In this document: piece by piece, positions 6,134 through 39,256 of the stretch
Layout of the letters: each line of letters opens with the position of its first letter
How positions within the stretch are numbered: the first letter of the stretch is position 1
Origin: Calidithermus chliarophilus DSM 9957
GTDB lineage: Bacteria > Deinococcota > Deinococci > Deinococcales > Thermaceae
Reading direction: 5' to 3'
DNA length: 39,256 nt
Assembly: GCF_000430045.1 (NCBI RefSeq)
Contig: NZ_KE387025.1
Location: 123,891-163,146 of the forward strand
Translations under genes and position numbers: made by a program
The notes under the pieces: generated by a model
Told to the model about the DNA's origin: nothing
The model's input: the letters and a program-made list of their open reading frames with translations, nothing else
Database searches by the model: none

Positions 6134-6486
6134 CAGGGCTCTCCCTCATCCGGCTCTTGTCGATCACGGGCAGCCATCAACAACCCCTTCCCTTCAGCAG
6201 CGCGTAGACTCTCGAGCGCCTCGGCCCGGCGTAGCACCTCAGCTAAAGCTTCGATCTTGAGGTCGAATCGCCCCGCGATGGTCCGAAGTTCCTCCCGGAA
6301 TGCCGGCGATGCGGATGAAGGGCGCCGGCACAGCCGCAGGGCGGGAAGGCCATCAGTCTCGCCTCCCAGGAAGGACGCGAGTTCAGGATCGCCCATCGCC
6401 TCACTCTCGGCATACACCCGAAGTGCCCAAGCGAGGAAGAAGGGGTCCTGACCCACCCGTTTAGACATGTGTCGGATGGCGCTCAT
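6133..6486 (-). CDS. Small helical protein between sigma factor and protease
   Basis: A 117-aa protein starting MSAIRHMSKRVGQDPFF. I chose ATG 6486 because AAAGGAGAGG sits directly upstream and the ATG overlaps the sigma-factor stop in an ATGA. No known family is recognised. It is charged, predicted mostly helical (FREELRTIAGRFDLKIEAL and AEVLRRAEALESL) and has no membrane segment. Its place between a sigma-like gene and an ImmA/IrrE-type protease would fit a sigma-binding protein or protease substrate, but that is inference from order only. Confidence 0.65.
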   Translation of the reverse strand: MSAIRHMSKRVGQDPFFLAWALRVYAESEAMGDPELASFLGGETDGLPALRLCRRPSSASPAFREELRTIAGRFDLKIEALAEVLRRAEALESLRAAEGKGLLMAARDRQEPDEGEP

Positions 6487-12700: not shown

Positions 12701-13714
12701 CTACTTGCCCACGAAGGGCACGTACTCTGGCAGGTCACCCCGCAGGTAGCGGGCGAGCAGACGGGCTTGGATGTGGGGCAACAGGCCGATGGGCACGGGC
12801 TCCTTGAAGAGCGGGTGCTGTACCGTCTCCTGGCGGCGCTTCTGGAAGGCGACGATCACCTCCTTGCGGCCGTCCTCCGACAGGAGCACCGCCCCGCCGG
12901 GGCGCTCTTCGAAGTGCCTCGAGGTCAGTTGCTTGCGGTTGAGGAGGGCCAGGACCAGGCGGTCACCCCACCAGGCGCGGAACTCCTCGAGGAGGTCCAG
13001 GGCGAGCGCGTTCCGGCCCGGACGCAGGGCGTGCAGGAAACCTACCTGCGGGTCGAGGCCCACCCCCTCCAAAGCGGCGGTGCACTGGGTGGCTAGAAGG
13101 GCATACACGAACCCCAGCAACGCGTTCACCGGGTCGCGGGGAGGACGCTTGTTACGGCCGTTGAAGGAAAACTCTCCTCCGATTAGCAATTCACCGAACG
13201 CCGCGAAATAGGCGGAAGCCGCGTTACCCTCCAGGCCGCGGACTTCGTCGAGGGTTTGTGCGTAGGGGAGCCAGCGTAAGGAGGTTTCGTGCTCCGCCAG
13301 GGCCGAGGCCAAGGCTTCGGTCTCCCCCCGTTCGCGCATCGCCCGTTGAAGCAGCGCCCGGGTATTCCTGAGCTTGCCCTCCACGAAGCGCTGGGCAAGG
13401 TATACGGCCTTGGCGTCTAGCGCCTGGTGCTGGGCCCGCCGCAGGAGCACGTTCCCCGAGACCGGGCCGGCCAAGCGCCCCTGAAAGCGCCCGTTCTCGC
13501 CGTACCAGGCCACCTCGCGGCCGTCCTGGGCGCAGCGGTGGAGCAAAAAGGGCGAGACGAGCACGTTGCCGAAAAGGCACAGGCCGTCGAGGTGGTGCAG
13601 CGGGATCTGGCGCTTGAGGCTGCCCTCCACCTCGACGCGTACCGTATCGCCCTGGAGGCGCAGGTAGGCCCCCTGGGCCTGGACGTAAAGGGTGTTGAGC
13701 AACTGGGTGTTCAC
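12701..13714 (-). CDS. cas1: CRISPR adaptation integrase Cas1 (type I-C)
   Basis: The 337-aa protein starts at a GTG that overlaps the cas4 stop by GTGA, preceded by GGGGGAG. The N-terminal beta domain begins NTQLLNTLYVQAQGAYLRL. The catalytic helical domain has the Cas1 signature AALEGVGLDPQVGFLH (metal-binding Glu and His) followed by LALDLLEEFRAWW with the acidic third ligand region. Cas1 is the transposase-like integrase of spacer acquisition and acts with Cas2; in I-C, Cas4 joins to trim prespacers at the PAM. Length is standard. The open frame continues upstream of the GTG, but that part is a shadow of cas4. Confidence 0.97.
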   Translation of the reverse strand: MNTQLLNTLYVQAQGAYLRLQGDTVRVEVEGSLKRQIPLHHLDGLCLFGNVLVSPFLLHRCAQDGREVAWYGENGRFQGRLAGPVSGNVLLRRAQHQALDAKAVYLAQRFVEGKLRNTRALLQRAMRERGETEALASALAEHETSLRWLPYAQTLDEVRGLEGNAASAYFAAFGELLIGGEFSFNGRNKRPPRDPVNALLGFVYALLATQCTAALEGVGLDPQVGFLHALRPGRNALALDLLEEFRAWWGDRLVLALLNRKQLTSRHFEERPGGAVLLSEDGRKEVIVAFQKRRQETVQHPLFKEPVPIGLLPHIQARLLARYLRGDLPEYVPFVGK

Positions 13715-14340
13715 GGCTCCCCCGAGCCGGGCGGTGACGGCAGGTGTGCGGCCATCGCGGAGCCGACGTAGGGCATGCAGGTGTCGATCAGCGAGCAGTT
13801 GGGGCAGCGGGCGTCGGCGACCGGGGGCGGGAGTTGGTCCTGCTCGAGCAGCCGCCGCACCTCCGCGACTATCCGCTCCACCTCGGCCCGCAGCTCTGGA
13901 GTGAAGGCCACCTCGAGCCTGCGCCGGGAGGCTTTGTAGAACAGCGCTCCCGCCGGCACTCGCACGCCGAACATTTCTTCCAGGCACATCCCCTGGGCGC
14001 ACAACTGCACCTGATCGGCCCGCTTGGCCCAGCGTGAGCCCACCTTGTGCTCGACCGGGTAGGGCAGGCCGTCGGCGAACTCCACCACGTCGGACCGCCC
14101 GGCGATGCCCAGCCGGTCCGACCAGAGCGGCAGGGCATACTCGACCCGCACGCCCTCGCGCACCAAGCCTTCGGGGACATCCACGCCCTCGTGGGCCCGC
14201 CGCCCCCGCAGGGTGTAGAGGTTTTCGTCCCAGACTTGCTCGAGGTGGATCAGGGCGCACTGGCGGGGGCAGTAGACGTAGTGCTGCAGGGCAGAAATGG
14301 GGATGGGGTCATCCCCCATTCCCCGCAGCTCAGGGCTCAT
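13711..14340 (-). CDS. cas4: Cas4 prespacer-processing exonuclease (Fe-S, RecB-like)
   Basis: The 209-aa protein has the four-cysteine Fe-S set expected for Cas4 (C24 in YCPRQC, then C179, C182 and C188 in RCPNCSLIDTC). The RecB-type nuclease core includes H50, D84 in GRSDVVEF, E97 and K99 in VEHKVG and a QVQLCAQ helix. It removes the PAM-side overhang from prespacers and fixes spacer orientation with Cas1-Cas2. It starts at ATG 14340, overlapping the cas7 stop (ATGA), and ends overlapping the cas1 start (GTGA), so synthesis is coupled. The C-terminal tail is short and proline-rich. Confidence 0.96.
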   Translation of the reverse strand: MSPELRGMGDDPIPISALQHYVYCPRQCALIHLEQVWDENLYTLRGRRAHEGVDVPEGLVREGVRVEYALPLWSDRLGIAGRSDVVEFADGLPYPVEHKVGSRWAKRADQVQLCAQGMCLEEMFGVRVPAGALFYKASRRRLEVAFTPELRAEVERIVAEVRRLLEQDQLPPPVADARCPNCSLIDTCMPYVGSAMAAHLPSPPGSGEP

Positions 14341-15221
14341 ACCAGTTGGGTGAGCGTCACCCCTTCGGGCAGGTTTTCCCGGTCCACCTGCACGGTATAG
14401 TCCGAGAATTGCCGGGCCACCCCCACAGGTTCAACCTTGATGCGGTCGATGAGCTTGTGTGCGGCCACGTTCCCCAGCGGGCTGCTGTGGGAGAAGACGT
14501 AGAGCCCCCGGCATGCGGTGTAGCCGCGGCTCGCCGAGCGGTCGAGGTCCCACATCTGCTCGAGGGCCGTCCAGAGCACCGCCAGGTCCTCGGAGCTGAA
14601 CCCGGTGTCCTGGGCGAAGCTCGGCACGAAGAAGCCTTTGGTGATGTAAAGCCCGTAGGGGATGTAGGCTTTGCGCCCGATGGTCCCGCTACGGGCGGTC
14701 TCCTCGCCCTCGTCATCGGCCACGCTTCCCTTCTCCTCCGCCCTCGTCAGGGCCACACGGGTGATAGCGGCATCCATCGGGAGGATGCGATCGACCGAGC
14801 GGGCGAAGGTGAGCTGAACGGGGCCCCGCACCTGTCCGCAGTTGACCTCCGTGCTCATCACCGCGCCGAAGGCCCGGATGTCGAAGAAGTTGTCGCACAT
14901 CCACCTGCGCGCTTCGGGGTCGGCAGCCTCACCCTTCCCTCGGGGCTTCTTCCCCAGGGCCGTGTAGGCGCGCAAGTGGTGGTTGTTCAGGATCGCCCCC
15001 TGCTGGACATAAATCTTGTAGCGCTCTTCCTTACCCTTGTAGGCATCGACGAAGTTGCGGATCTTACGCTTGAGGGCCACGTCGGTCACGATGCCCAGGC
15101 CGGTTTCGGGGTCTACGCGGGGGAGGTTACCGGCGTCGGGGTCGCCGTTGGGGTTGCCGTTGGTGACGTCGAACAGGAGCACGAAGTCGTGACGGACTGC
15201 GGGGTTGAGGTGGGGGTTCAC
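14337..15221 (-). CDS. cas7: Cas7c (Csd2), Cascade backbone subunit
   Basis: The 294-aa protein starts at GTG 15221 with AGGAGG six nt upstream and a GTGA overlap with the cas8c stop. Its N-terminus contains FDVTNGNPNGDPDAGNLPR, the classic Csd2 signature, followed by DVALKRKIRNFV. Also typical are FFDIRAFGAVMST and QVRGPVQLTFARS. Cas7c forms the helical filament that holds the crRNA spacer. Length and order (cas5-cas8-cas7-cas4-cas1-cas2) are canonical for subtype I-C. Confidence 0.97.
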   Translation of the reverse strand: MNPHLNPAVRHDFVLLFDVTNGNPNGDPDAGNLPRVDPETGLGIVTDVALKRKIRNFVDAYKGKEERYKIYVQQGAILNNHHLRAYTALGKKPRGKGEAADPEARRWMCDNFFDIRAFGAVMSTEVNCGQVRGPVQLTFARSVDRILPMDAAITRVALTRAEEKGSVADDEGEETARSGTIGRKAYIPYGLYITKGFFVPSFAQDTGFSSEDLAVLWTALEQMWDLDRSASRGYTACRGLYVFSHSSPLGNVAAHKLIDRIKVEPVGVARQFSDYTVQVDRENLPEGVTLTQLV

Positions 15222-15646
15222 TGGACTCCTCCTTCGGCCTGCTTGGCCTGTTGTGCGGCTTTGGCTTCGGCGATGGCTTCGAACTTTTCGGCTTTCTGGT
15301 GGTAGTAACCGAGACTGAACAGCGCCTGGTTCTCCAGGTCGAGGGTGGCGGGGATGCTCTTCAGGTGCAGCGAGATCTCAGCGATGCGCCGCTCGAAGAG
15401 GCCGTGTAGCCCCTTCTTGCTGGGGTCTTTGCGGAGCTTGCTGAGGTGGGCCTGTGCCCCGTTCATCAGGGCGCGGTAGGGCATCACCGGGGTGCTGCTC
15501 AAGGAGCCGTAAAACCGGTCGGTGACGGTGGTGTTGACCTTGCCGAGGGCGGCGTACTGAAGGTCTTCCAGCAGGGCCATGAGCCGCCCCAGGTGGTAGC
15601 CCGGGGAGTCCGGCCGGTCGGGTTCCAGACGCTTGAGTTCATTCAT
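15218..15646 (-). CDS. cas11: Internal translation product Cas11c within cas8c
   Basis: An in-frame ATG at 15646 inside cas8c is preceded by GGAGG (minus strand 15661-15657; 10 nt to the ATG) and would give a 142-aa protein beginning MNELKRLEPDRPDSP and ending in the helical, Ala-rich C-terminus of Cas8c. In type I-C and several other type I systems the small subunit Cas11 is known to be made from an internal start in the cas8 gene. Position and size fit that. The internal ribosome binding site is visible; expression is inferred. Confidence 0.65.
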   Translation of the reverse strand: MNELKRLEPDRPDSPGYHLGRLMALLEDLQYAALGKVNTTVTDRFYGSLSSTPVMPYRALMNGAQAHLSKLRKDPSKKGLHGLFERRIAEISLHLKSIPATLDLENQALFSLGYYHQKAEKFEAIAEAKAAQQAKQAEGGVQ

Positions 15647-17005
15647 ACCGATCTTTCCTCCAGAGATAAGCACCATTCGGGTGAGGACGGCTCGAGGGGC
15701 GGTCACCCGCTGCTCGGCGCGGTTGCGCGCGACCAGTTGAGCCAGAAAGGCCCACGGCAGCGGGGTTTGTTTTAGGGCAAAGGCCGTGAGTGCCGTGGGG
15801 ACGGAGGCCACCATCTCTTTGTTGGCGTCACGGTAAAGGCTTCCCGCCAGCGCATAAAGGCCGAAGGGCTCGAGGTCGTAGAGCTCCTGGCTCTCGAAGT
15901 AGCGCTCGAGGTTCCGCCGGACCTCCTTGACCGTTGCGGTGATGTGGTCGCGCACCACCACGCGGCTCCCGCTCGCCGAAAGGCTCACCGCGTAGAACTC
16001 GTCCTCGGGGAGGGCCGTAAACTCTCTGCCGCTGAACACGCCGCGGATGGCGCTGCGTACCTGCTGCGTGTCGGCGGCAATCTTTGGCTTGGACTCCGCT
16101 CCCCGCTTGAGCCGCTCGAGGACACTCTCACCTCGGGGGTTTTTCAACAACTCGGCCACGGGCGGGATTGGGCCGGTCTTGGTCCAGAAGGCGTAGACCA
16201 CCGGCCCCACGCGGAGGTGGGTCGATTCATTCTTGAGCAGGTGGTTGAGGGCGTTGGCGTACTTTTCGGCGAGGTCGAGGCGGACTGGGGCGATTTGGGA
16301 GGCCGAGAGCCCGTACGACTCGAAAGCAGCCGCGTTGGCTGAGATGAAGTTCATCCCTGAGGTCTGGCCGCCGGGGATTCCCTTGACCTTGACGGGCTCA
16401 CGCTCCATGACCGGCCCGACAACGCCCGAAATCAGGCACTCGGCCCTAAGCCCCTTCGTGCCATCGGCACCCTCCGCCACCGCGAATTGGCCTGCCCAGT
16501 ACTGCTGGACCTCGGGAAGATCGATCGGACGCACCCCGTCCACCACGAAGGTCAGGTTGTCATCCGCGCTGAAACCGGCTTCCAGGCCTAGTTTGGAGGG
16601 ATCCAGGGCTTCCAGGAAGCGATGCACAGCCCAGACTTCGGGTATTTCCGTGGCTTTGGCACAGGCCAACACCTCCCGCTTGAAGAGCTCGTGGCGCTGC
16701 CGAACCTTGGAAGCGTCGGCCCCCTCCTTGCTCAGCCCGAGCACGTACTCCCCGTTATCGGCGAGGAGTTTGGCCCTCGGGGCCACCGTCCGGATGACGT
16801 GCGGGGTGAGCAGACGCTTCCCCCGGTCACTCTTCTTCCCCGAGCCGTCGGAGGTGCGCTCGAGGCGCTGGAAATTCCCTTGTGCGTCCAAGTAGACCAG
16901 CCAGCGAACCGGCTGCTCCTGGTACATGAACGGCACTTTGGGCCTGCCGCCGGCCTCCTCGCGCTCCAGCCGCTCGGCGTAGGCTACTAGCTGCTGCAAG
17001 AGCAT
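15218..17005 (-). CDS. cas8c: Cas8c (Csd1), Cascade large subunit
   Basis: The 595-aa protein starts at ATG 17005 (MLLQQLVAYAERLE), sharing one base with the cas5c stop (TGATG) and having AGGAG upstream. Csd1-like features include VRWLVYLDAQGNFQRLE, LADNGEYVLGLS, a glycine-rich GGQTSGMNFISANAAAFESYG segment near the middle and AFWTKTG. Cas8c recognises the PAM and recruits Cas3. The 3' quarter also encodes the Cas11c start. The frame is open for 31 codons before the chosen ATG, but these overlap cas5c. Length agrees with the family. Confidence 0.95.
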   Translation of the reverse strand: MLLQQLVAYAERLEREEAGGRPKVPFMYQEQPVRWLVYLDAQGNFQRLERTSDGSGKKSDRGKRLLTPHVIRTVAPRAKLLADNGEYVLGLSKEGADASKVRQRHELFKREVLACAKATEIPEVWAVHRFLEALDPSKLGLEAGFSADDNLTFVVDGVRPIDLPEVQQYWAGQFAVAEGADGTKGLRAECLISGVVGPVMEREPVKVKGIPGGQTSGMNFISANAAAFESYGLSASQIAPVRLDLAEKYANALNHLLKNESTHLRVGPVVYAFWTKTGPIPPVAELLKNPRGESVLERLKRGAESKPKIAADTQQVRSAIRGVFSGREFTALPEDEFYAVSLSASGSRVVVRDHITATVKEVRRNLERYFESQELYDLEPFGLYALAGSLYRDANKEMVASVPTALTAFALKQTPLPWAFLAQLVARNRAEQRVTAPRAVLTRMVLISGGKIGMNELKRLEPDRPDSPGYHLGRLMALLEDLQYAALGKVNTTVTDRFYGSLSSTPVMPYRALMNGAQAHLSKLRKDPSKKGLHGLFERRIAEISLHLKSIPATLDLENQALFSLGYYHQKAEKFEAIAEAKAAQQAKQAEGGVQ

Positions 17006-17694
17006 CAGTTCACGCTCCTGTACAAGTCGGGGACTTTCAGAACGCCCCGCTCGAGCCGCGCCGCGAAGAATTTGGGGACTGCTCTCCCCTTCACCCACGC
17101 TCCCCCGTTGGCGCCGTGCTTGCGGAACCTGACCGGCCCGTCCTCATCCTCGGTGAACTCGAGGTCGAAGAGCATCCGGCCTAAGTCTTCGGTGAGCGCC
17201 TCGAGCGGCCGGTCTTCGGCGCTCACCGGGGCGAAGTAGCCGGTGAACTCCCGCGTGCCCAGGTAGGGCTGGTGGCGGGCCTGACCCTTCTCTACCCGCC
17301 GCTCGAAGATCTCGCGGTATTTGGTGAGCGGGTCGGTGGCGTGGGGGGCGAGCTCGAGGTCGGCCCGGATCACGTAGGCCACGTCCTTGAGAACCAGGGC
17401 GTTGCGCTGGGCACGGTCTTCCTCGGCGAAGAAACCCCCGCCCGACTTCTGCCAGCCTTGGGCGGAGCGGGCCGAGGCCACGGTGTTGACCTCGTTGCGG
17501 AGGATGGAAAAGCGCTTGATGGGGTTGAGCACCCAGATCTCGCGCACCCTCCAGCGGAACTCGGGTTTCCAGAAGATGGCCTCGAGCACCCCTCTGGCCG
17601 CGCTGGGGGTCATCACGTCGTAGGAAACGCGCTCCACCTTGTTCTCGGGGCGGGTGAAGCAGGCGTACTCGCCCCATACCTTCACAGCTACCAC
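17005..17694 (-). CDS. cas5: Cas5c (Cas5d), pre-crRNA endoribonuclease and Cascade subunit
   Basis: The family-typical N-terminus VAVKVWGEYACFTRPE and the following KVERVSYDVMTPSAARG identify Cas5c. In type I-C this protein replaces Cas6: it cuts the repeat below its hairpin and stays on the 11-nt handle. No cas6 is present here. I place the start at GTG 17694 (229 aa), because AGGAGGAGG lies 6 nt upstream and one base separates it from the stop of the 58-aa ORF, whose last codons form that ribosome binding site. An ATG six codons upstream (17712) is a weaker alternative. Confidence 0.93.
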   Translation of the reverse strand: MVAVKVWGEYACFTRPENKVERVSYDVMTPSAARGVLEAIFWKPEFRWRVREIWVLNPIKRFSILRNEVNTVASARSAQGWQKSGGGFFAEEDRAQRNALVLKDVAYVIRADLELAPHATDPLTKYREIFERRVEKGQARHQPYLGTREFTGYFAPVSAEDRPLEALTEDLGRMLFDLEFTEDEDGPVRFRKHGANGGAWVKGRAVPKFFAARLERGVLKVPDLYRSVN

Positions 17695-17695
17695 C

Positions 17696-17872
17696 TCAAT
17701 CCTCCTCCTCATCCTCAAGCCTTTTGGGATCGCCATAGAGCCGGTAATGCAGACGAAGCTTGAACTCCTCCAGTAGATCCTCAGGGGTAGGGAAGGGTCT
17801 ATGCGAGTAAATGCACTCCGCCAACTCATTAACCGCAAGTTCATAGGCTACTTTGAGGTCGGTTCGTCTCAT
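17696..17872 (-). CDS. 58-aa acidic-tailed ORF, first gene of the cas5-cas2 operon
   Basis: The frame reads MRRTDLKVAYELAVNELAE, then RPFPTPEDLLEEFKLRL, and ends in RLEDEEED. It looks genuinely coding, but I recognise no family. Two starts compete. ATG 17872 lies exactly at the start point predicted from TTGACT-17-TATCTT and would be leaderless. TTG 17890 has AGGAGG 5 nt upstream and would add six residues. Only one base separates the stop from cas5c, and the codons for the acidic tail provide the cas5c ribosome binding site, so coupling with cas5c is likely. It could be a small regulator or accessory Cascade protein, or simply a leader ORF that sets cas5c translation. Confidence 0.6.
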   Translation of the reverse strand: MRRTDLKVAYELAVNELAECIYSHRPFPTPEDLLEEFKLRLHYRLYGDPKRLEDEEED

Positions 17873-17878
17873 GCATCG

Positions 17879-17907
17879 AAGATAGCGCAACCCTTCCTCC
17901 TAGTCAA
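17879..17907 (-). promoter_or_regulatory. Predicted main promoter of the cas5-cas8-cas7-cas4-cas1-cas2 operon
   Basis: TTGACT (17907-17902) and TATCTT (17884-17879) are 17 bp apart on the minus strand; the seventh base after the -10 box is the A of ATG 17872. This is the best consensus promoter seen near the cas genes. The PAM of the mini-CRISPR target (17909-17911) begins one base upstream of the -35 box. Confidence 0.6.
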
Positions 17908-17908
17908 T

Positions 17909-17940
17909 TTCACTGGTAGTGAAGAAACCTAATCAGTAGA
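17909..17940 (+). promoter_or_regulatory. Predicted self-target (PAM plus protospacer) of the mini-CRISPR RNA
   Basis: TTC (17909-17911), the usual type I-C PAM, is followed by ACTGGTAGTGAAGAAAC and then CTAATCAGTAG. The mini-CRISPR spacer reads ACTGGGTAGGAAGAAAC and then ACTAATCCAGTAG. In fixed register positions 1-5 and 10-17 match and 6-9 do not; most of the rest aligns after single-base shifts. Such partial pairing would allow binding without Cas3 cleavage, as known for CreA/CreR-type RNAs. Confidence 0.6.
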
Positions 17941-17960
17941 AACGTGCATCATCCACCGAA

Positions 17961-17966
17961 TATACT
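17961..17966 (+). promoter_or_regulatory. -10 box of the mini-CRISPR RNA
   Basis: TATACT on the plus strand; the predicted start (about 17973) falls directly at the first base of the repeat-like element. The -35 region is poor. Confidence 0.45.
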
Positions 17967-17973
17967 ACCCAGC

Positions 17974-18058
17974 GTCGGCACGCCCCACGGCGAGGATTGA
18001 AACACTGGGTAGGAAGAAACACTAATCCAGTAGTGCCCCCTATAAGGGGGCCCTGTTT
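17974..18058 (+). ncRNA. Mini-CRISPR regulatory RNA, CreR-like
   Basis: A single repeat-like element (17974-18003) starts GTCGGCACGCCCC and ends GAGGATTGAAAC, the last 12 bases being identical to both arrays. A short GC stem (CGCC/GGCG) directly precedes the 11-nt handle AGGATTGAAAC, so Cas5c could process it. The first part resembles the GTCG...ATTGAAAC repeats of other I-C systems rather than the local repeats. A spacer-like stretch follows (18004-18034), then a 6-bp hairpin GCCCCC/GGGGGC (18035-18051) and a T-rich tail, which looks like a terminator. With the -10 box just upstream, this forms a complete small transcription unit, convergent with cas3. Its spacer resembles the site next to the cas promoter. 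Known CreR RNAs guide Cascade to repress cas genes; I infer the same here. Confidence 0.6.
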
Positions 18059-21000
18059 ATATGACGCTGCTACTAGCATCGAACAGCTCCTCGATCCCCA
18101 GCTTCTCGCTGTAGTTCCCGGTCCACTCCCAAAGTTCGACATCGAGTTCGGTCATCTCGCAGATGAAGGGGGCCAGCTTTTCCTTGTTGCTGGCGTAAAT
18201 GTTGACGATGTACGGCTGGAGCTTCCGCAGAGCCATAAAGCCTGTGTGCTGGCTCAAGATCCGGTCGATGGCTGCGGCATCCTGGGCCCGCTTGCGCACC
18301 AACACAGGGAAGGTGTTGTCGCCGATTAGCCGGTACAATTCGGCCACCTTCGGGTAATTGAATTGCTGGCGGAAGCTCTGGACCTCCTTGGCGTCGGTGT
18401 GGGTGAGGTCACGGTAGAGCTCGGTGAAGTACCGGGTGAAGAGTTCGGGGTCGTCCAGGTCAGCGCCCTGGCGCAGCAAATTCCGTGCGAGGCCGGTGGC
18501 GCTGGCGTAGACGCCTTGCGGCAGGCCTTCACGCTCGGGGCGGAATACGGTCACCTCGCCCAGGACCGGCTGGCCCCCGCGCTCGAGCCTCCCCTCGCGG
18601 TTGCAGCGCCCTGCGGCCTGCACCACCGAGTCCAGAGGCCCCAGGGCCCGGTAAACCATGGGGAAGTCCAGGTCCACGCCCGCTTCGACCAATTGGGTCG
18701 AGACCACCCGGCAGGGGAGGTTGCGCTTCAGGCGGTCCCGGATGGCGGCGAGCACCTCTCGCCGGTGGGCGGGGTACATGTGGGTCGAGAGATGGACGGC
18801 CTCGGGGTCGTCGAGGGCAGCGTACAAATCCCGGGCCTGCTGTTTGGTGTTGACGATGCACAATACCTGATCGTGCCCGCGAAGCCGCTCGGCCACCGCC
18901 TCCCAGGGCTGCGGCTGGAGCTCGAGCCTGTACGCCACCCGCTTGAGCTGTCGGAAGTAGCGCCCGGGGTCGGGCACGATCTCCCGCACGCCCTCCAGCG
19001 TGGCGAAGCCCAGGGGAGCGTCGAGCGCGGGCTGGGTCGCCGTGCACAGCACCACGCTCACCCGGTAGCGCCGGACCAGCTCCTTGAGCACGTCCAGGGT
19101 GGGCTGGAGGAGGTTGGCCGGCAGCGTCTGTACCTCGTCGAGCACGATCACCGACCCGGCGAGGTTGTGGATCTTGCGGAGCTTGCTGGGGTTGTTGCTC
19201 AGCAGGCTCTCGAACAACTGCACGGTGGTGGTAACCACCACGGGCATGTCCCAGTTCTCCGAAGCCAGCCTGGCGCGGCTTTCCTCCTCCGCGTCGGCGG
19301 GCTCGTAGGCTGAGTGGTGCTCGAGGACGTTCTCTGCCCCTAGCAGCTTGGCGAACTCTTCGGCGGTCTGGTCGATGATGCTGGTGTAGGGGACCGCGTA
19401 GACCACTCGCCGCAGGCCGAACTTCACCGCGTGTTCCAGCGCGAAGGCCAGGCTCGAGCGGGTCTTTCCGCCCCCGGTCGGCACGGTGAGCCGGAAGAAG
19501 CCGGGCTCGAGAGCGGCGGCCTCGAGGGCGGCTTGATAGATCTCCCAGCGGGTCCGGTTGACCAGGGTATCGGCGCTGCGGATCTTCTCCTGCCCCTCTT
19601 TCACCCTGGCGAGCAGTTCCTGCAGGCCGGCTTTGGGGACGGTGCGGTAGGCGTACCGCCTGGGGCTCCAGAAGCGCTCTGTATCGAGCCGGTCCGCGTC
19701 CACCAGGGCGCTCAGCAGCATCCGGATGAAGAATTCGCGGGCAAGGGGCTCGAGCTCAGCGATTTCGGGAGCCACCCCCCCGAAGATGTCCTTCAGCTCC
19801 TCGCAGGCCCGGTCCAGGGCCTGCCGGACCTCCGGGCTCTCCCTGCGTCGGAGCAGCCGGTCGGTGAGTAGGGAGCGGTCGCCAATCCTGCCGTGGTGGT
19901 ATGCCACCGCCCACGCCAACTCGCTGCCGAGCCCGTTCGCAGGGATGAGGTCGTCCTCATAGCCCGCGAGCAGGAGGTCCCGGCCCAGTACGGCCCCGGC
20001 GCTGGAATGGTCCACTTTCCCGGCGGGGGGCGGGCTTCCGAATCGGTCAGCCCGGTACGCTGCCCGGAGGTAGTCCTGAAACTCCTGGCTGTACTTGCCC
20101 AGGTCATGGAGGATGCCCAGCCAGTAAGCCAGCTCGGAGGCCGCCGGAACGTTGAATTGGGCGGCGAAGTCGCGGGCCAGGCCGGCGACGGCCTCGAGGT
20201 GCTCGCGCAACGGCTGCCACCGCTGCCTGGGGTCGTCTTTGCGGGGCGTATGGGCCCAGTACGGGCTGTTGGCCGTTGAGCCAAGGTTCCGGTCGGAGCT
20301 GTACAACTCTGCCACGGCTACGGCCTCCTCGAGCCAGCGCTGCCGGAAGAACTCCGGCTCCAGCACCTCCACCCTCGGCCCCCAGCTCTGCACCCATGAC
20401 AGCAGCTCGATGGGGAAACCGCCCTCGTCGGTGCCTACCGTAACCTCCACCACCAGGCTGCCGTCGTCGCGCTGCTCCAGCTCCCTGAGGTTGGGGTAGC
20501 CCCCCTCCCGGATGCGCTGGACGGCGCTGGGCAAGAAGCGCAGCTTCACCCGCACGGGGTTCCCCCCGCCCCCCACGATGCCCCAGGCGTCGGAGAGGTA
20601 CTCCCGGGGGTCGAAGCTGGCCGGGATCTCGTAGGCCTCGGTCGAGCCGACCAGGGTGACGAACTGCATCCGCGCGAGCTTAAAGGTGCGCAGCTCGTTC
20701 TTGTAGCTGCGCTCGCGGCCGATGACGTAGACCGCCATGTTGGCCCGCGAGACCTCGATGAAGTAGGTTTCCAGCTCGAATTTGGTGGGCTCGCGCCGCC
20801 CGGGGAGCTGGTAGTGGAACTGGACGAGCTGGCGGCGGAACCAGGCGTTGGTGATCTTCTCGAGGTTGCTGCCCTCGAGGCCTGGTCCACGGGCGGCCAT
20901 GGACTCGGCGCTGCGCTGCGCGACGGTCCGGGCGGGCTCGGGTAGGCCGCGCGCCAGCTTGAGCATGGCCTCGAGGTACTGCTGGTTATGACCCGGCGAG

Positions 21001-21299
21001 TGGTGGTAGAGCATCCGCAGGGCCGTGTGCGCCACCACCTTGTCGATGTCGCTCAGGAGCACGCCGGCGTTGAGGGCGTAGGTGTGCCGGATCTCATCGT
21101 GCAGCAGTCGGAAGCCCAGGTAGGGCTCGAGCTCCTTGAGGTCTTCGAGGTAGTACAGCACCGCCCGCTTCCTGACGCCGAGTGCGGTGGCGAGCTGTTG
21201 TGCCGTCCAGGGCTTGAGCTTGAGCAGCTCCAGCAGCCTGACGAGCCGGAGGGCCTTCTCGTGGGTGGCATTGGGCAGATCAGTGTCGTCCGGCTGCAT
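18057..21299 (-). CDS. cas3: Cas3 helicase-nuclease with N-terminal HTH-WYL regulator domain (fusion)
   Basis: One uninterrupted 1080-aa frame. Residues 1-75 form an HTH (RLVRLLELLKLKPWTAQQLA, then GVRKRAVLYYLEDL). About 150-240 is a WYL-type domain, with VYV in place of WYL (190-192) followed by RTFKLARMQFV. About 245-333 is the WCX-like extension (VKLRFLPSAV ... VEVLEPEFFRQRW). Cas3 then begins: HD nuclease with H350, H398-D399, H431 and H468-H469; helicase with PTGGGKT (607-613), DEVQ (721-724), TAT (753-755), STQLVEAGVDL (867-877) and QAAGRCNREG (894-903). The Cas3 part (~745 aa) and regulator part (~335 aa) are each of full family length. No convincing internal start separates them. Cas3 is recruited by Cascade to degrade target DNA; the fused sensor domain suggests direct regulation of, or by, the nuclease. 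Confidence 0.9.
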   Translation of the reverse strand: MQPDDTDLPNATHEKALRLVRLLELLKLKPWTAQQLATALGVRKRAVLYYLEDLKELEPYLGFRLLHDEIRHTYALNAGVLLSDIDKVVAHTALRMLYHHSPGHNQQYLEAMLKLARGLPEPARTVAQRSAESMAARGPGLEGSNLEKITNAWFRRQLVQFHYQLPGRREPTKFELETYFIEVSRANMAVYVIGRERSYKNELRTFKLARMQFVTLVGSTEAYEIPASFDPREYLSDAWGIVGGGGNPVRVKLRFLPSAVQRIREGGYPNLRELEQRDDGSLVVEVTVGTDEGGFPIELLSWVQSWGPRVEVLEPEFFRQRWLEEAVAVAELYSSDRNLGSTANSPYWAHTPRKDDPRQRWQPLREHLEAVAGLARDFAAQFNVPAASELAYWLGILHDLGKYSQEFQDYLRAAYRADRFGSPPPAGKVDHSSAGAVLGRDLLLAGYEDDLIPANGLGSELAWAVAYHHGRIGDRSLLTDRLLRRRESPEVRQALDRACEELKDIFGGVAPEIAELEPLAREFFIRMLLSALVDADRLDTERFWSPRRYAYRTVPKAGLQELLARVKEGQEKIRSADTLVNRTRWEIYQAALEAAALEPGFFRLTVPTGGGKTRSSLAFALEHAVKFGLRRVVYAVPYTSIIDQTAEEFAKLLGAENVLEHHSAYEPADAEEESRARLASENWDMPVVVTTTVQLFESLLSNNPSKLRKIHNLAGSVIVLDEVQTLPANLLQPTLDVLKELVRRYRVSVVLCTATQPALDAPLGFATLEGVREIVPDPGRYFRQLKRVAYRLELQPQPWEAVAERLRGHDQVLCIVNTKQQARDLYAALDDPEAVHLSTHMYPAHRREVLAAIRDRLKRNLPCRVVSTQLVEAGVDLDFPMVYRALGPLDSVVQAAGRCNREGRLERGGQPVLGEVTVFRPEREGLPQGVYASATGLARNLLRQGADLDDPELFTRYFTELYRDLTHTDAKEVQSFRQQFNYPKVAELYRLIGDNTFPVLVRKRAQDAAAIDRILSQHTGFMALRKLQPYIVNIYASNKEKLAPFICEMTELDVELWEWTGNYSEKLGIEELFDASSSVI

Positions 21300-23603: not shown

Positions 23604-26134
23604 GTTGCAGTGGGCTTAAATGCTCACTGAGGATTGAAACTCGCGGCGATAGGGCTCGATGCGGATTTGCAGCGGTTGCAGTGGGCTTAAATGCTCACTG
23701 AGGATTGAAACAGGCCCGCTCCGCCCAACTCGAGGCCGAGGGCACCCCGTTGCAGTGGGCTTAAATGCTCACTGAGGATTGAAACCCCCTCGAGGTGGCC
23801 CCGTGAGCCCGCTCGAGCGGTTGCAGTGGGCTTAAATGCTCACTGAGGATTGAAACGAGGCCACCATCGCCGTCGACCGCAACGACATTGAGGGTTGCAG
23901 TGGGCTTAAATGCTCACTGAGGATTGAAACCAGCCCTCGGTCCAGGGCGGCACCAGCGGCGTCGGTTGCAGTGGGCTTAAATGCTCACTGAGGATTGAAA
24001 CAACATCCGCCAGGCCATCGGCCGCCGCGTGGCGCGTTGCAGTGGGCTTAAATGCTCACTGAGGATTGAAACTCCAGGGCCATCCGGGCGGCCATCTCAT
24101 CGAGTTGCAGTGGGCTTAAATGCTCACTGAGGATTGAAACCCGTGGTCAACCCGGCCAACGTGCGTGAGGTGAGTTGCAGTGGGCTTAAATGCTCACTGA
24201 GGATTGAAACGCGATGCCCAACCTGCCCAGCCCATCCAGGCGAGGTTGCAGTGGGCTTAAATGCTCACTGAGGATTGAAACAGCAAGGACAAGGGCAAGG
24301 CCCTGCTGACCTACTACGTTGCAGTGGGCTTAAATGCTCACTGAGGATTGAAACGGGGTGATGCTCCGGGAGGAGTCCCAGGAGTTCCCGTTGCAGTGGG
24401 CTTAAATGCTCACTGAGGATTGAAACGGCCACGCTGAAGGAGGTGGCGGGGACGGAGCGCGGTTGCAGTGGGCTTAAATGCTCACTGAGGATTGAAACAT
24501 CCCCGACCTCGAGCCCATCCGGCTCTCAGACCTTGTTGCAGTGGGCTTAAATGCTCACTGAGGATTGAAACAGCTCCTAGCGCCCGGCGCACGAACCCGC
24601 GATACCCGTTGCAGTGGGCTTAAATGCTCACTGAGGATTGAAACACCGCCTACCTCGACGCCCGCATCGTGGGGGCGTTGCAGTGGGCTTAAATGCTCAC
24701 TGAGGATTGAAACCAGTCCAGCGAGTACTACCGGGTTTGGGACATCAGTTGCAGTGGGCTTAAATGCTCACTGAGGATTGAAACATGAGTTCACCTAGAG
24801 CTCCAGGTAACTCGAAGAGTTGCAGTGGGCTTAAATGCTCACTGAGGATTGAAACTGCCACGGCCACCTCCCCGATCGCCTCGTAGGTGGCGAGTTGCAG
24901 TGGGCTTAAATGCTCACTGAGGATTGAAACCGCTGCGCCAACACCAACGAGGCCAGCCTCTCCTAGGTTGCAGTGGGCTTAAATGCTCACTGAGGATTGA
25001 AACTTCAACGGCATCGCCCAGGGGGAGATGGTCACCGTTGCAGTGGGCTTAAATGCTCACTGAGGATTGAAACCAGCGGATGACGAGTTGCGCGTAGGGG
25101 ATGCTCATGTTGCAGTGGGCTTAAATGCTCACTGAGGATTGAAACGTGAGTCGGGCCCGCTCCCGCTCGGCTTACCTGGAGTTGCAGTGGGCTTAAATGC
25201 TCACTGAGGATTGAAACCCGTAGACGGGCTTGTGAATGTCCCCGGCGAGTTGCAGTGGGCTTAAATGCTCACTGAGGATTGAAACCTGGGCATCAGCGGC
25301 CCCCTCGAGGGCGGCGGTGTTGCAGTGGGCTTAAATGCTCACTGAGGATTGAAACAACGGGACCGCCGGCAACAGCCTCCAGGGCAGGTTGCAGTGGGCT
25401 TAAATGCTCACTGAGGATTGAAACCTCCTCCCGCCACACATGCACCGGCAGGTTGAGTTGCAGTGGGCTTAAATGCTCACTGAGGATTGAAACATGAGCT
25501 GGACCAGCAGCCCCAGGACCGGCAGGAAGTTGCAGTGGGCTTAAATGCTCACTGAGGATTGAAACGACGTGCAGGGCTGGCGGTTTTTCGCCGGGCACGT
25601 TGCAGTGGGCTTAAATGCTCACTGAGGATTGAAACCTGATCGACGACGAGTTTTCCGGCGTGGGGATGGGTTGCAGTGGGCTTAAATGCTCACTGAGGAT
25701 TGAAACTCGCAGGCCGAGGTCTGCGACGCCTACGACTGCGGGTTGCAGTGGGCTTAAATGCTCACTGAGGATTGAAACCTGGCCTGGGCGCGGATGGAGA
25801 AGGCGGCCCTGGGTTGCAGTGGGCTTAAATGCTCACTGAGGATTGAAACCCCCGGCGCACGTCGCGGGGCGGGCGGGCCTGGGGTTGCAGTGGGCTTAAA
25901 TGCTCACTGAGGATTGAAACTGCGGTAGAACAGCCAGAAGGCCAGCAGGCCCACGTTGCAGTGGGCTTAAATGCTCACTGAGGATTGAAACATCGAGTAC
26001 GTGGGCCAGGGCTTCGCCCTCGGCCTGTTGCAGTGGGCTTAAATGCTCACTGAGGATTGAAACTCTTGTCCCCCTTGGCTACCCTGCCGGGTGCGGGGAT
26101 GTTGCAGTGGGCTTAAATGCTCACTGAGGATTGA

Positions 26135-27211
26135 TACCCTTTCATGCTGATGCCTTCGCCCTCGGCCACCAGTGGAAGAGGGTGTGCCGCCGCAGGGTCT
26201 TTGGGTCCCCCTCCAGGACCCGGCACCGCTCGGCCACCCCCTCCATCATCTCCTGCAGGTCCTGGAAGTACCGGTTCGCCACCGCCTCGTTCACCAAAGG
26301 CCACACCCGCTCCACCGGTTGCAGCTCGGGGCTGTAGGGGGGCAGAAAGACCAGACGTATCCCTTCAGGCACCTCCACCTTGGGGGAGACGTGCCACCCC
26401 GCCCGGTCCAGCACCACCCAGGCCTCCTCTTCCTCCCGCAAGGCGGCCCTGAACTCCCGCAGCACCCAGCCCATCACCTCGGTGTCCATCCCGTCTACCA
26501 GCAGGCTCAGGTTCTCTCCCGTCTCCGGTTCCACGAAGGTGCACACGTAGAACCACCGGTACCGGTGTGCCCCCACCGCCAAAGGCCGCTTCCCCCGCCG
26601 GGTCCACACCCGCCGGTACACGGGCCTAAGCCCCAGGCGGTGCTCGTCGTAGGCCCAAAGCCTCACCCTCCGCCCCTCCGCCCTGGCCCGCCGGACCTCG
26701 GCGAGGAGGTTTTTTTAAAGGCCTCCTGCGCCTCCATGTCCGCCCTCCGGTGCCGGGGCCTTGGGGTGCGCAGGGAAAAGCCCATCTCGTGCAAGAGGCG
26801 GTAGATGGGATAGAGGGAGACCTTCTTCCCCAGTTCCCGCTCCACCCAGTCCCGCAGCTTGGGACCCGTCCATAGGCCCCCGTCGGGAGGAGGACCCTGC
26901 AAAGCCTCCAGGACCCTCGCCTGCTCCTCGGGGGTCAGCTTGGGCCTCTGCCCTGGGTTATGGTGCCGCCTGTCTTTTAGGGCCTCGGGGCCTTCCTGGT
27001 GGTAGCGCCTCACCGTTGCCTGCACCCAGCGGGAGCTGTTCAAGGTGATCCTGGCGATCTCCTTGGCGGTGAGCCCCCGCTTGGCGTGGTAGACCGCCAG
27101 GAAGCGGGTCCTTTCTATCGGATCCTTGGCCTTCTTGACCCTCCGCCATAGCTCGCTCAAGGTTAGATGGTCGGCTACGGTCATAAACGAAGGATACAAC
27201 AGGAAAGGGTA
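26135..27211 (-). mobile_element. IS630-family insertion sequence inside a CRISPR repeat
   Basis: The 1077-bp element has imperfect terminal inverted repeats of about 24 bp: TACCCTTTC at 26135 and its complement at 27203-27211, then partial matches including CCTTCG. The interrupted repeat resumes after the right end with TGAAAC, so TGA appears on both sides (26132-26134, 27212-27214). A 3-bp TGA duplication explains the flanks best; the family norm is TA. The single transposase is on the minus strand. Intact ends and ORFs suggest a recent, possibly active insertion. Confidence 0.9.
26142..27184 (-). CDS. IS630-family DDE transposase, two frames joined by -1 frameshift
   Basis: The first frame (27184-26663) encodes the HTH part (TLSELWRRVKKAKDPIERTR, LTAKEIARITLNSSRWVQ). 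The second (to 26142) encodes the DDE domain with LWAYDEHRLG, VVLDRAGWH and the family signature PPYSPELQPVE. The frames differ by -1 and overlap around a run of seven A (minus strand, 26716-26710), a classical slippery site; shifting there gives a continuous protein of about 345 aa. I chose ATG 27184; TTG 27199 is possible. The frameshift is probably programmed rather than a mutation. Confidence 0.88.
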
Positions 27212-30200
27212 TGAAACAGCAGCTCCTCGAGGTCCACCCCGAACAGCGCGTGTTGCAGTGGGCTTAAATGCTCACTGAGGATTGAAACTTGGTGAAGGCC
27301 CTCCCGCTCGGATGGTCGGTGGTTGCAGTGGGCTTAAATGCTCACTGAGGATTGAAACTACCTGGCCCTCACGGTCAACCGTTACGGCTTCTGTTGCAGT
27401 GGGCTTAAATGCTCACTGAGGATTGAAACTGCGTGGTCTACAGCCGCGACGTGGACCTCACCGGTTGCAGTGGGCTTAAATGCTCACTGAGGATTGAAAC
27501 GTCCCAGGCCCTCGCCACCGCCGTGGACTCCTACATGTTGCAGTGGGCTTAAATGCTCACTGAGGATTGAAACATGAACCCGTAGCCGCCCGGCCCCGTG
27601 ACCACGTTGCAGTGGGCTTAAATGCTCACTGAGGATTGAAACGTATAGGTGTCGCGGTTGTAGGCCCAGCGGCCCGCGTTGCAGTGGGCTTAAATGCTCA
27701 CTGAGGATTGAAACGTTGATGAATACCTCATAGACCTCAACGCCACCGCCGGTTGCAGTGGGCTTAAATGCTCACTGAGGATTGAAACCCCTCGAGCAGC
27801 TTGCGGCCGCTGCTGCCGAGCTGGTTGCAGTGGGCTTAAATGCTCACTGAGGATTGAAACCTCCTCCACCAGCGGCGCCCCCCGGGCCACCTCATCCGTT
27901 GCAGTGGGCTTAAATGCTCACTGAGGATTGAAACACCCGCACCGGCAGCGGGGCCTGCCGTGCATGGATGGTTGCAGTGGGCTTAAATGCTCACTGAGGA
28001 TTGAAACTACGCCGCGCTCGAGGCCCACGCCCCCCTGACGGTTGCAGTGGGCTTAAATGCTCACTGAGGATTGAAACTGCTTCGCCACCCAGCTCAACCG
28101 CCGCCCCTCCGGTTGCAGTGGGCTTAAATGCTCACTGAGGATTGAAACCAGCCGAGCGCGGTGGAGGAGTCGAACACGACGGGTTGCAGTGGGCTTAAAT
28201 GCTCACTGAGGATTGAAACTTGTTCGCGCCGCCCGCCGTACTGGGCAGGGCCGAGTTGCAGTGGGCTTAAATGCTCACTGAGGATTGAAACTGCTCCGGG
28301 CGGGCCTTGGGGTGGATGACCTTCCGTTGCAGTGGGCTTAAATGCTCACTGAGGATTGAAACGGCGGGGGGTGGGGGCCGTGAAGGCGGCGCTCGAGTGG
28401 GTTGCAGTGGGCTTAAATGCTCACTGAGGATTGAAACTTGGCGACCTCGTTGGTGCCCAGCGCGCCGCCGGTTGCAGTGGGCTTAAATGCTCACTGAGGA
28501 TTGAAACCTGCCGACGCGAGCAGCCTGACGGGGAGGACCCGCCGTTGCAGTGGGCTTAAATGCTCACTGAGGATTGAAACGGGCGAGAGCGGGCCGAGGA
28601 AGCAGTCCACGTGGGTTGCAGTGGGCTTAAATGCTCACTGAGGATTGAAACTGCATCCCGACCCCGACCTCAACCCCGACTTCGTTGCAGTGGGCTTAAA
28701 TGCTCACTGAGGATTGAAACAAGAATAGGCTCGGCGTGTGCTTGCTGGGGGGGGTTGCAGTGGGCTTAAATGCTCACTGAGGATTGAAACTTGCGGTAGG
28801 TTCCACGGGCACCGTCAACCCCCCGTTGCAGTGGGCTTAAATGCTCACTGAGGATTGAAACGCCAAGAAGCTGCGCGAGAGCAACGTCCCCGACGGTTGC
28901 AGTGGGCTTAAATGCTCACTGAGGATTGAAACCTCGAAGGTGGCCGGGCCATCGTGGACGGGAGTTGCAGTGGGCTTAAATGCTCACTGAGGATTGAAAC
29001 TCATAGCGCACCCGGACGGTCATCTCACCCTCGGTTGCAGTGGGCTTAAATGCTCACTGAGGATTGAAACCCCTGGATGACGTTGATGGAGTTGAGGGCC
29101 TCCATGTTGCAGTGGGCTTAAATGCTCACTGAGGATTGAAACAAGATCATCGCCAATCGGCGGGTGGTCAACAAGGTTGCAGTGGGCTTAAATGCTCACT
29201 GAGGATTGAAACGAGCGCACGATGGCCGCGTGGCGGGACACGATGCGGGGTTGCAGTGGGCTTAAATGCTCACTGAGGATTGAAACAAGGGGGGTAAGCC
29301 GGTGCTCTGCCCTTGTGCCAGGTTGCAGTGGGCTTAAATGCTCACTGAGGATTGAAACCTGGAGTGGCTCTTCGGCCAGGGTTACGCCATGTTGCAGTGG
29401 GCTTAAATGCTCACTGAGGATTGAAACGGGCTCGGGGATAAAGGGGCGGGCGGGCATCCGCACGTTGCAGTGGGCTTAAATGCTCACTGAGGATTGAAAC
29501 ACGAAGGCCCCCGGTATCGGCAGGCGGAGGGGGTTGCAGTGGGCTTAAATGCTCACTGAGGATTGAAACTCCTCGAACAACGTCCCCAACACCGCCGGGG
29601 CGGTTGCAGTGGGCTTAAATGCTCACTGAGGATTGAAACCACATCCGCCGCGCCAGCGCCACCAGCTCCTCGTTGCAGTGGGCTTAAATGCTCACTGAGG
29701 ATTGAAACGTCGGGGTAGAGCGGAAGAGGACTCTACAGGGCGCGTTGCAGTGGGCTTAAATGCTCACTGAGGATTGAAACCCTCCGTCTCGTCGTAGTGG
29801 CGAAGCTGGACGCTCGGGTTGCAGTGGGCTTAAATGCTCACTGAGGATTGAAACACCGCGAGCTACCTCCTGGGGCTCGGCACCAGCCCGGTTGCAGTGG
29901 GCTTAAATGCTCACTGAGGATTGAAACCGCAACTCGCGCAGGCGGGAAGGGTCGTTCCCCTCGTTGCAGTGGGCTTAAATGCTCACTGAGGATTGAAACA
30001 TCGATATCGAGGGCGAAGTCCTCGGGGATCGTTGCAGTGGGCTTAAATGCTCACTGAGGATTGAAACTATCTGCCCCTCAACAGCGCCCCCGCCTCAAGC
30101 TAGTTGCAGTGGGCTTAAATGCTCACTGAGGATTGAAACTCGACCCACAGTGCCAGGGTGCCCTCGAGGTTGATGTTGCAGTGGGCTTAAATGCTCACTG

Positions 30201-37399: not shown

Positions 37400-37999
37400 T
37401 CAGGGCCAGTAGCGGGCCACGGCGAACTCGAGCTCGCTCTGGGCGCCCCGGAGCTCCCGCCACCCGGCCACCACGATCCTGCCGTCGGCCTGCAGGCGCA
37501 TGGCCAGGAGGGAGTCGGCGGCGCCGGCGAAGTCGGTGACGACCTTGCCGTCGGCGTCGAAGCTCGCGTCGAGGCTGCCGTCGGGGTTGTACCGGGCCAG
37601 GGCGAAGCTGGAGGTGTAGCCCCCGCCCGCCCCGCCCCCGCTGCCCCCGGCGGCCACGATCTTGCTGCCGGGCTGGAGGGCTAAGGCGAAGATCACGTCG
37701 CTCCCCCCGAGGTCGGTGGTCACGACGCCCTGGTCGCCGAATTGCGTGTCCAGGGTCCCGTCCGGGTTGAAGCGGGCAAGGGCGAAGTCCTGGCCAGGGG
37801 TGTACGCCAGCCCTCCCACCACCAGCTTCCCGTCGGGCTGGACGAGCAGGGCGAACGCCTTCGACCCGCTCCCCGCCTTCACGGTGACCAGGCCGTCCCC
37901 GCCGAAGCCGGCGTCCAGCGAACCGGCGGGGGGTTTGGGGGGCGGGGTGATGCAGGCCGTCAGCAGCAGCCCCAGCCCGATGATCGCGTACCTTCGCAT
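37400..37999 (-). CDS. Delta-60-repeat lipoprotein
   Basis: The 199-aa protein has a lipoprotein signal (MRRYAIIGLGLLLTAC, lipobox LTAC) and then about three delta-60 repeats, each with the pattern SLDxxFGxxG ... DLGG ... QPDGK(I/L)VVxG ... FALARYNPDG. Such repeats form beta-propeller-like structures; the function is unknown, the location is probably the outer side of a membrane. AGGAGGTGACCC precedes the ATG. The next minus-strand gene has the same repeats, indicating a tandem duplication. Confidence 0.8.
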   Translation of the reverse strand: MRRYAIIGLGLLLTACITPPPKPPAGSLDAGFGGDGLVTVKAGSGSKAFALLVQPDGKLVVGGLAYTPGQDFALARFNPDGTLDTQFGDQGVVTTDLGGSDVIFALALQPGSKIVAAGGSGGGAGGGYTSSFALARYNPDGSLDASFDADGKVVTDFAGAADSLLAMRLQADGRIVVAGWRELRGAQSELEFAVARYWP

Positions 38000-38053
38000 G
38001 GGTCACCTCCTCGAGCCCGGCGCCCTGAGCCGGCGGGTCACCCCTCGAGCGCC

Positions 38054-39256
38054 TCAGGGCCAGTAGCGGGCGAGGGCGAAGTTGGCGCCGGCCCCTCCGG
38101 CCGCCACGATCCTGCCGTCGGGCTGCACGGCCACCGCCCCGGCGAAGTCGTAGCCGCCGAAGTCGGTGAGCGCCCTGCCGTCGCCGTCGAAGGCGATGTC
38201 GGGGGTGCCGTCGGGCGTGTAGCGGGCGAGGGCGAAGTCGCCGCCGCCGCCGTCGTAGCTGTGCCCGGCCAGCACGATCTTGCCGCCCGGCTGCAGCGCC
38301 ATCCTGTAAGCGTCGTCCTGCTTGCCGAGGTCGCTGACGACCACCCCGCCGGCCCCGAAGCCGGTGTCGGGGGTGCCGTCGGGGTTGTAGCGGAACAGGG
38401 CGAAGTCGAAGTCCTTCACGTAGCGCACCCCGCCCGCCACGATCTTGCCGCCCGGCAGCACGGCCAGCGCCCGGATGCCCCCGCCGCCGATGTCCACCCG
38501 GCCGTCCGAGCCGAAGGCGGGGTCCAGCGAGCCGCCGGGGGTGTAGCGAGCCAGCGCGTCGCCGTCCCCGAAGCCGCCCGCCACGATCTTCCCGTCGGGC
38601 TGCAGCGCCAGGGCCCAGACCCCCTCGTTGCCGCCGAAGTCGCTGACGACCTTGCCGCCGGCGCCGAAGTCGGGGTCGAGGCTGCCGTCGGGGCGGTAGC
38701 GGGCGAGGGCGAAGTCGGCCTTCGCGCCGGCGCTCCAGCCCGCCACGACGAGCCTGCCGTCGGCTTGCAGCGCCAGGCCGTAGGCCTCGTCCCGCCCGCC
38801 GAAGTCGGTCGTCACCTTCCCGCCGCTGCCGAAGTCGGGGTCGAGGCTACCTTGCGGGGTGTAGCGGGCCACGGCGAAGTCGTAGTTGCCCGCGGAGCGG
38901 CTGACCCCCGCGACCAGGATCTTCCCGTCGGGCTGAAGGGCCAAGGCCTGGGGCTCGGCGTAGTCGCCGAACACGGTGATCGCCCTGCCGCCGTCGCCGA
39001 AGCCGGCGTCGGGGGTGCCGTCGGGGTTGAGGCGCAGCAGGGCGAAGCGGCCGTTGCCGAAGCCGGCGGCCAGGATCTTTCCGTCCGGCTGCAGCACGAG
39101 GGCCTGGGCGAAGTCGTTGCCGCCCAGGTCGCCGACGTACCTCCCGCCCGTGCCGAAGCTCATGTCCAGCGAGCCGGGCGCCTCCCTCACCACGCCCAGG
39201 CTCAGCGGGGTCTGGCGCGAGGTGGCGCCGGAGGTGCCGGTCACGGCGGGGCTCCA
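38054..39256 (-). CDS. Delta-60-repeat protein, 5' end outside window
   Basis: At least 396 aa with about seven delta-60 repeats (for example ALALQPDGKILVAG, FALARYRPDGSLDPDFGAGG). The frame is open to the edge of the window (WSPAV precedes the GTG at 39244), so the real start and a probable signal peptide lie outside. It ends ANFALARYWP, almost the same as the end of the next lipoprotein (FAVARYWP), as expected for paralogues. Role unknown. Confidence 0.78.
   Translation of the reverse strand, partial: WSPAVTGTSGATSRQTPLSLGVVREAPGSLDMSFGTGGRYVGDLGGNDFAQALVLQPDGKILAAGFGNGRFALLRLNPDGTPDAGFGDGGRAITVFGDYAEPQALALQPDGKILVAGVSRSAGNYDFAVARYTPQGSLDPDFGSGGKVTTDFGGRDEAYGLALQADGRLVVAGWSAGAKADFALARYRPDGSLDPDFGAGGKVVSDFGGNEGVWALALQPDGKIVAGGFGDGDALARYTPGGSLDPAFGSDGRVDIGGGGIRALAVLPGGKIVAGGVRYVKDFDFALFRYNPDGTPDTGFGAGGVVVSDLGKQDDAYRMALQPGGKIVLAGHSYDGGGGDFALARYTPDGTPDIAFDGDGRALTDFGGYDFAGAVAVQPDGRIVAAGGAGANFALARYWP

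Follow-up and report, generated by a model that had tools for sequence, protein, structure and literature searches.

A solo repeat with a guide to the cas operon promoter in a type I-C locus of Calidithermus chliarophilus, probably a CreR-type regulatory RNA

The crRNA-like mini-arrays of Shmakov et al. 2023 are said to be standalone repeats, mostly of type I, whose spacers are partly complementary to promoters of cas loci, and the element described here shares this build: one standalone repeat, with a spacer partly complementary to a promoter within the cas locus. The cas-regulating RNAs known as CreR (Liu et al. 2023 Cell Host Microbe; PMC12737573, PMC13131331) are closest to it. Common to both are a standalone repeat-spacer unit within the cas locus, a spacer partly complementary to the cas promoter, repression through the effector complex (expected here) and release under competition by crRNAs or anti-CRISPRs. 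Our element differs in belonging to type I-C with predicted processing by Cas5c, in having one repeat closed by a hairpin, in its position in the cas3-cas5 gap, antisense to the operon and at a leaderless promoter, and in that some targets here have no base opposite guide positions 18 and 24. The review among these sources names autorepression of cas genes for types I-B, I-E and V-A (PMC13131331).

Two further systems are related. The CreA RNAs of CreTA modules (PMC9458426) likewise have one or two degenerate repeats and a spacer partly matching a TTC-flanked promoter, and they guide Cascade to repress without cleavage, which can only be inferred for our element; they differ in that no toxin gene was identified here, and in that the targeted promoter of many relatives runs straight into cas5. 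Racr RNAs (PMC10651486) are also solitary CRISPR repeat RNAs, but they are viral, phage-borne and inhibit the effector, whereas the element analyzed here sits inside a host cas locus and bears a guide matching the cas promoter. A Racr would be carried by a virus or another mobile element; this does not hold here given the location in the cas operon region, and no convincing match of the guide was found in phage records.

The analyzed window comprises 39,256 nucleotides (positions 123891-163146 of the contig, from a genome of 4.69 Mb). By NCBIfam it holds a type I-C locus entirely on the minus strand, flanked on both sides by CRISPR arrays: a WYL-Cas3 fusion (18057-21299), cas5c (17005-17712, TIGR01876; the predicted repeat-processing subunit in type I-C), cas8c (15218-17098, TIGR01863; an open frame whose true start is probably further in), cas7c (14337-15221, TIGR02589), cas4 (13711-14340, TIGR00372) and cas1 (12701-14260, TIGR03640, its match covering the open frame only from residue 186 onward). 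The N-terminal WYL/HTH part of Cas3 shares 91% identity with the WYL-Cas3 of a genome of the same genus (G003), whereas its HD-helicase part reaches only 37%. Because of this split the protein seems chimeric, and the I-C operon seems, from sequence identity, to have been exchanged, with the WYL-Cas3 junction as the breakpoint. Elsewhere in the window, the right-hand array is broken at 26064-27277 by a two-frame IS630-like transposase with DDE_3 and winged-HTH parts, and a long series of imperfect repeats of 150-180 nt at 37400-39180 is probably coding for a repetitive protein.

A gap of 184 bp separates the stop of cas3 (18057) from the ATG of a 58-aa ORF (17696-17872, minus strand, function unknown). 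On the plus strand this gap contains, in this order, a TTC (17909-17911), the target (protospacer, 17912-17939), a candidate promoter, a degenerate repeat (17977-18003), a guide (18004-18034) and a hairpin (18035-18051). The initial annotation had proposed this arrangement as a mini-CRISPR aimed at the cas promoter, and all its sequence elements lie where it had placed them. Consensus scoring assigned the guide RNA a candidate promoter (TAGAAA-18-TATACT, 17937-17966) whose -35 box sits at the end of the target. The hairpin GCCCCCTATAAGGGGGC, supported by sequence and fold, resembles a terminator and would close the RNA; the T-rich tail that had been described after it is present but weak (CCTGTTTATA), and this weakness counts against the reading as a regulatory RNA.

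The repeat is of type I-C, with a short stem (CGCC/GGCG, 17981-17984/17989-17992) followed by the 11-nt 5' handle AGGATTGAAAC (17993-18003), as seen in its sequence and fold. Of the 152 copies of the motif GAGGATTGAAAC in the window, all but the one at 17992-18003 on the plus strand lie within the two arrays; chance alone would give 0.01 copies in the entire window, and no second solo repeat was found elsewhere in it. The Rfam covariance model CRISPR-DR9 aligns to 17977-18003 including the short stem, under its gathering score (E=0.012). An earlier suggestion that the repeat resembles I-C repeats of other lineages more than the local ones finds weak support (12-13 of 18 matches to local repeats in the 5' part, 13-15 of 18 to others). 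It does not decide on age or foreign origin, which we rejected as a conclusion; simple degeneration would also give this picture.

The guide starts at 18004 with ACTGGGTAGGAAGAAAC. In fixed register it matches the target at exactly positions 1-5 and 10-17, reproducing the earlier count, and ACTGGTAGTGAAGAAAC (17912-17928) is the part of the target covered in this way. When TTC sites in the gap were scored, 0 of 2000 shuffled guides and 0 of 151 real array spacers came up to the score of the guide itself. A search of the 4.69-Mb genome for the pattern TTCACTGGNNNNGAAGAAAC with at most two mismatches returned only the target and the spacer itself, and a reversed control pattern had no match; by this measure the TTC-preceded match is unique in the genome. 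An origin of the guide from a phage was considered and rejected, as phage records gave only a chance match of 20 nt (E=8). One must keep in mind that the fixed-register seed, with its mismatches at 6-9, is among the weakest of the whole set of pairs described below, which counts against the preferred reading.

To see whether the element recurs, more than 150 type I-C loci were surveyed, with Cas5c loci drawn from Deinococcota (111 genomes), Armatimonadota (291), overlapping samples of Actinomycetota (39, 396 and 299 genomes) and plasmids. Solo repeats were found in the cas3-cas5 gaps of other Deinococcota (L038, L041), of Armatimonadota, of Actinomycetota and of one alphaproteobacterium. Among the first 97 loci whose gap could be resolved, the window included, the solo handle GGATTGAAA[C/T] is present in 13 of the 16 gaps of at least 150 nt and in 0 of the 81 smaller ones, with the caveat that the element itself partly creates the large gap. 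One of the three large-gap exceptions (L111) has a more degenerate handle and a match of 13/15. No such handle was found in 253 kb of control I-C loci. Ten further loci were added, nine from Actinomycetota (L195 being Streptomyces microflavus) and one from Tistrella; four of them have handles with two mismatches and were retained partly for their target score, while the six with at most one handle mismatch all give TTC. Its strand differs by group: the element is antisense to the operon in Deinococcota and in the actinomycetotal order, and shares the operon's strand in Armatimonadota. In two loci (L101, L153) a solo handle stands in the gap without a convincing target there; these count against the preferred reading, and their guides may act elsewhere.

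On the Cas5c tree, presence of the element requires 12 changes, compared with a mean of 12.4 for shuffled labels, and loci with and without it occur as sister pairs. A single origin is not supported by any clustering and was rejected; from the scattered presence and the sister pairs it follows that the guide-target pairs are largely independent. Co-variation of guide and target in related genomes had been named beforehand as a test that could refute the proposal. It is seen in other Deinococcota and in further phyla, where the spacer differs from locus to locus and finds a PAM-flanked match of its own within that gap, in most cases over the promoter. In other genomes of the Thermaceae the element was not found, and the gaps, where resolved, measure about 50 nt or less; the lack of recurrence in the same family is explained by cas3 and cas5 lying so close together.

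For the comparison of pairs, the surroundings of each solo repeat were searched for the top-scoring ungapped 17-nt match, with neither the PAM nor position weights taken into account, and this site served as the target. The top site scored at least 11 in 20 of 21 loci, and these 20 unbiased pairs are preceded by TTC in 18 cases and by GTC and TTT in one case each. Matches per guide position amount to 18-20 of 20 at positions 1-5, 7 and 9-11, to 16 at position 8 and to 12-15 at positions 13-17, and drop to 4 at position 6 and 5 at position 12. Taken together, positions 6 and 12 are matched in 9/40 cases compared with 258/300 at the others (Fisher p=3e-16). Type I effector complexes are known to flip out one guide base in six. 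The clustering of mismatches at these positions is therefore direct evidence that the similarity is kept for pairing with a guide, and not as a site for a protein.

This bears on two other ways of reading the locus. Both stretches could be operators of a regulatory protein, with the WYL/HTH portion of the Cas3 fusion as one candidate, and the repeat-like 3' end would then be a coincidence. The neighbouring gene does encode a WYL-HTH domain, and inverted repeats (ACTGG...CCAGT and CTACCCAG/CTGGGTAG) surround both stretches. Against this, the targets differ wholly between loci as the handle stays constant, the TTC before the target and the mismatches with a period of six are traits of Cascade and not of a protein operator, and only one of eight other WYL-Cas3 loci found has the element (L067, the L038 locus). 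We regard a protein operator as the most improbable of the explanations considered. Alternatively, the element might be a dead relic, a decayed repeat with a spacer accidentally captured from the cell's own cas promoter and no longer made or used. Its degenerate, single-copy repeat would fit this, as would a spacer-target similarity over 30 nt, which a self-derived spacer would show. Such a remnant would not be expected to reappear with the same anatomy and new guide-target pairs in four phyla (at least three of them well supported), nor to retain hairpin and handle, and conservation of positions 1-5 and 7-11 but not of 6 and 12 requires selection on pairing; a relic is thus very improbable. 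What would be expected of a CreR RNA is present instead: a repeat with intact handle outside the arrays in a cas locus, a PAM-flanked partial match at the cas promoter, guides and targets that co-vary across loci, and the pairing of a type I effector with every sixth position free.

A further hint, overlooked in the initial annotation, is that the similarity in the window continues past position 17 if bases are missing from the target. It spans 30 nt, so that the 28 nt of the target face guide positions 1-30, if the target lacks single bases opposite guide positions 18 and 24; in an equivalent alignment a base is also missing at 6, with one extra T at 9. The blocks 13-17, 19-23 and 25-29 then match at 15/15 positions. 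The same pattern of 5-nt blocks is found in L117 (14/15) and, with an additional skip at 12, in L089 (13/15) and L116 (12/15); L194 is less complete (10/15, skips at 12 and 18). In free alignments of the window, L089 and L117 all eight target gaps fall at multiples of six, allowing for runs of a base, and over 21 loci phase 0 sums to 182, other phases to 156-171. It is possible, and no more than a tentative idea, that some CreR targets offer five DNA bases per six guide bases, so that I-C Cascade skips a base, the R-loop can reach further towards the guide's end and its geometry blocks Cas3. With similar reserve, the absent base would then face a flipped-out guide position (18, 24, sometimes 12). 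The pattern was spotted after the fact, most pairs are without it and the extra T at position 9 in the window has no explanation. As most pairs lose similarity past position 17, missing bases were rejected as a general rule, and we treat the pattern as a lead.

The promoter next to the target is the best one found near it on the operon strand (TTGACT-17-TATCTT, 17879-17907, minus strand). Its TTGACT (17907-17902) is one base from the PAM, confirming the earlier placement of the site, TATCTT follows at 17 bp, and the ATG is only 6 nt further, which makes the 58-aa ORF leaderless. This ORF runs into the beginning of cas5c, and the promoter is thus also that of the cas operon. Across the survey, 13 of 21 targets lie on or directly next to the best sigma-70-like promoter of the operon strand, where random placement expects 3.5; some targets (L041, L089, L100) have no good promoter over them, which counts against the preferred reading. 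Being the first gene after the targeted promoter, the 58-aa ORF could also be a toxin that Cascade silences by a CreA-type antitoxin, addicting the cell to CRISPR and leaving the control of cas genes a side effect. Several related gaps do have other, unrelated small ORFs at this place, HNH-like (L108) and XRE-like (L117) ones among them. Three points speak against it. The 58-aa ORF cannot be silenced apart from the cas operon, given the overlap; it has no toxin match, with no hit in Pfam or PADLOC and no homologue among 110 other genomes of the phylum; and nine loci have no ORF of at least 30 aa between target and cas5, which speaks for autorepression of cas over the guarding of a toxin. An antitoxin role is therefore unlikely, though less so than a relic or a protein operator. 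A relation of the ORF to the 70-aa ORF of L038 was rejected, as the two do not align. Three loci of Armatimonadota (L035 at 6138-6389, L089 and L100) have a small ORF in common (LKPGVVV...HPAL...) between the guide gene and cas5.

Autorepression of the cas operon could proceed as follows. The promoter around 17937-17966 would give a short plus-strand RNA, and Cas5c may cleave the degenerate repeat and leave the 11-nt handle, so that the RNA would begin at about 17993 with AGGAUUGAAAC. I-C Cascade loaded with this guide would find the TTC and bind from 17912 onwards, a stretch that abuts the -35 box of the leaderless promoter for the 58-aa ORF and cas5-cas8-cas7-cas4-cas1; the bound complex would also reach the -35 box of the guide RNA's own promoter. 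Cascade on the DNA is presumed to exclude RNA polymerase, and the imperfect, interrupted pairing (mismatched at 6-9, out of register past 17) might stop Cas3 from destroying the chromosome. Once Cascade becomes scarce, or is taken up by other crRNAs or anti-CRISPRs, the operon would be released.

We put the probability of a CreR-type cas-regulating RNA belonging to a type I-C system at roughly 0.84. Its anatomy, recurrence, co-variation, PAM, pairing signature and promoter overlap are direct observations. They support the targeting of the cas promoter that had been claimed from the window alone, chiefly through recurrence, co-variation, PAM and the mismatches at 6 and 12. Transcription, processing, loading, repression, the absence of cleavage and the sensing of a shortage are all inferred, and the lack of transcript or protein data counts against this reading.

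The guide gene appears to direct the cell's own CRISPR machine to the switch of its cas genes, by which the level of defence would be self-limited. This would extend RNA-guided autorepression of cas genes to type I-C in at least three well-supported phyla; priority for I-C remains open. As the regulator has a fixed place, the gap between cas3 and cas5, it is easy to find. The targets with missing bases pose the question whether Cascade can pair with DNA that lacks the nucleotide opposite its flipped-out guide bases, and whether such an absence uncouples binding from cleavage. The twenty natural guide-target pairs reveal which positions are kept when Cascade must bind and not cut.
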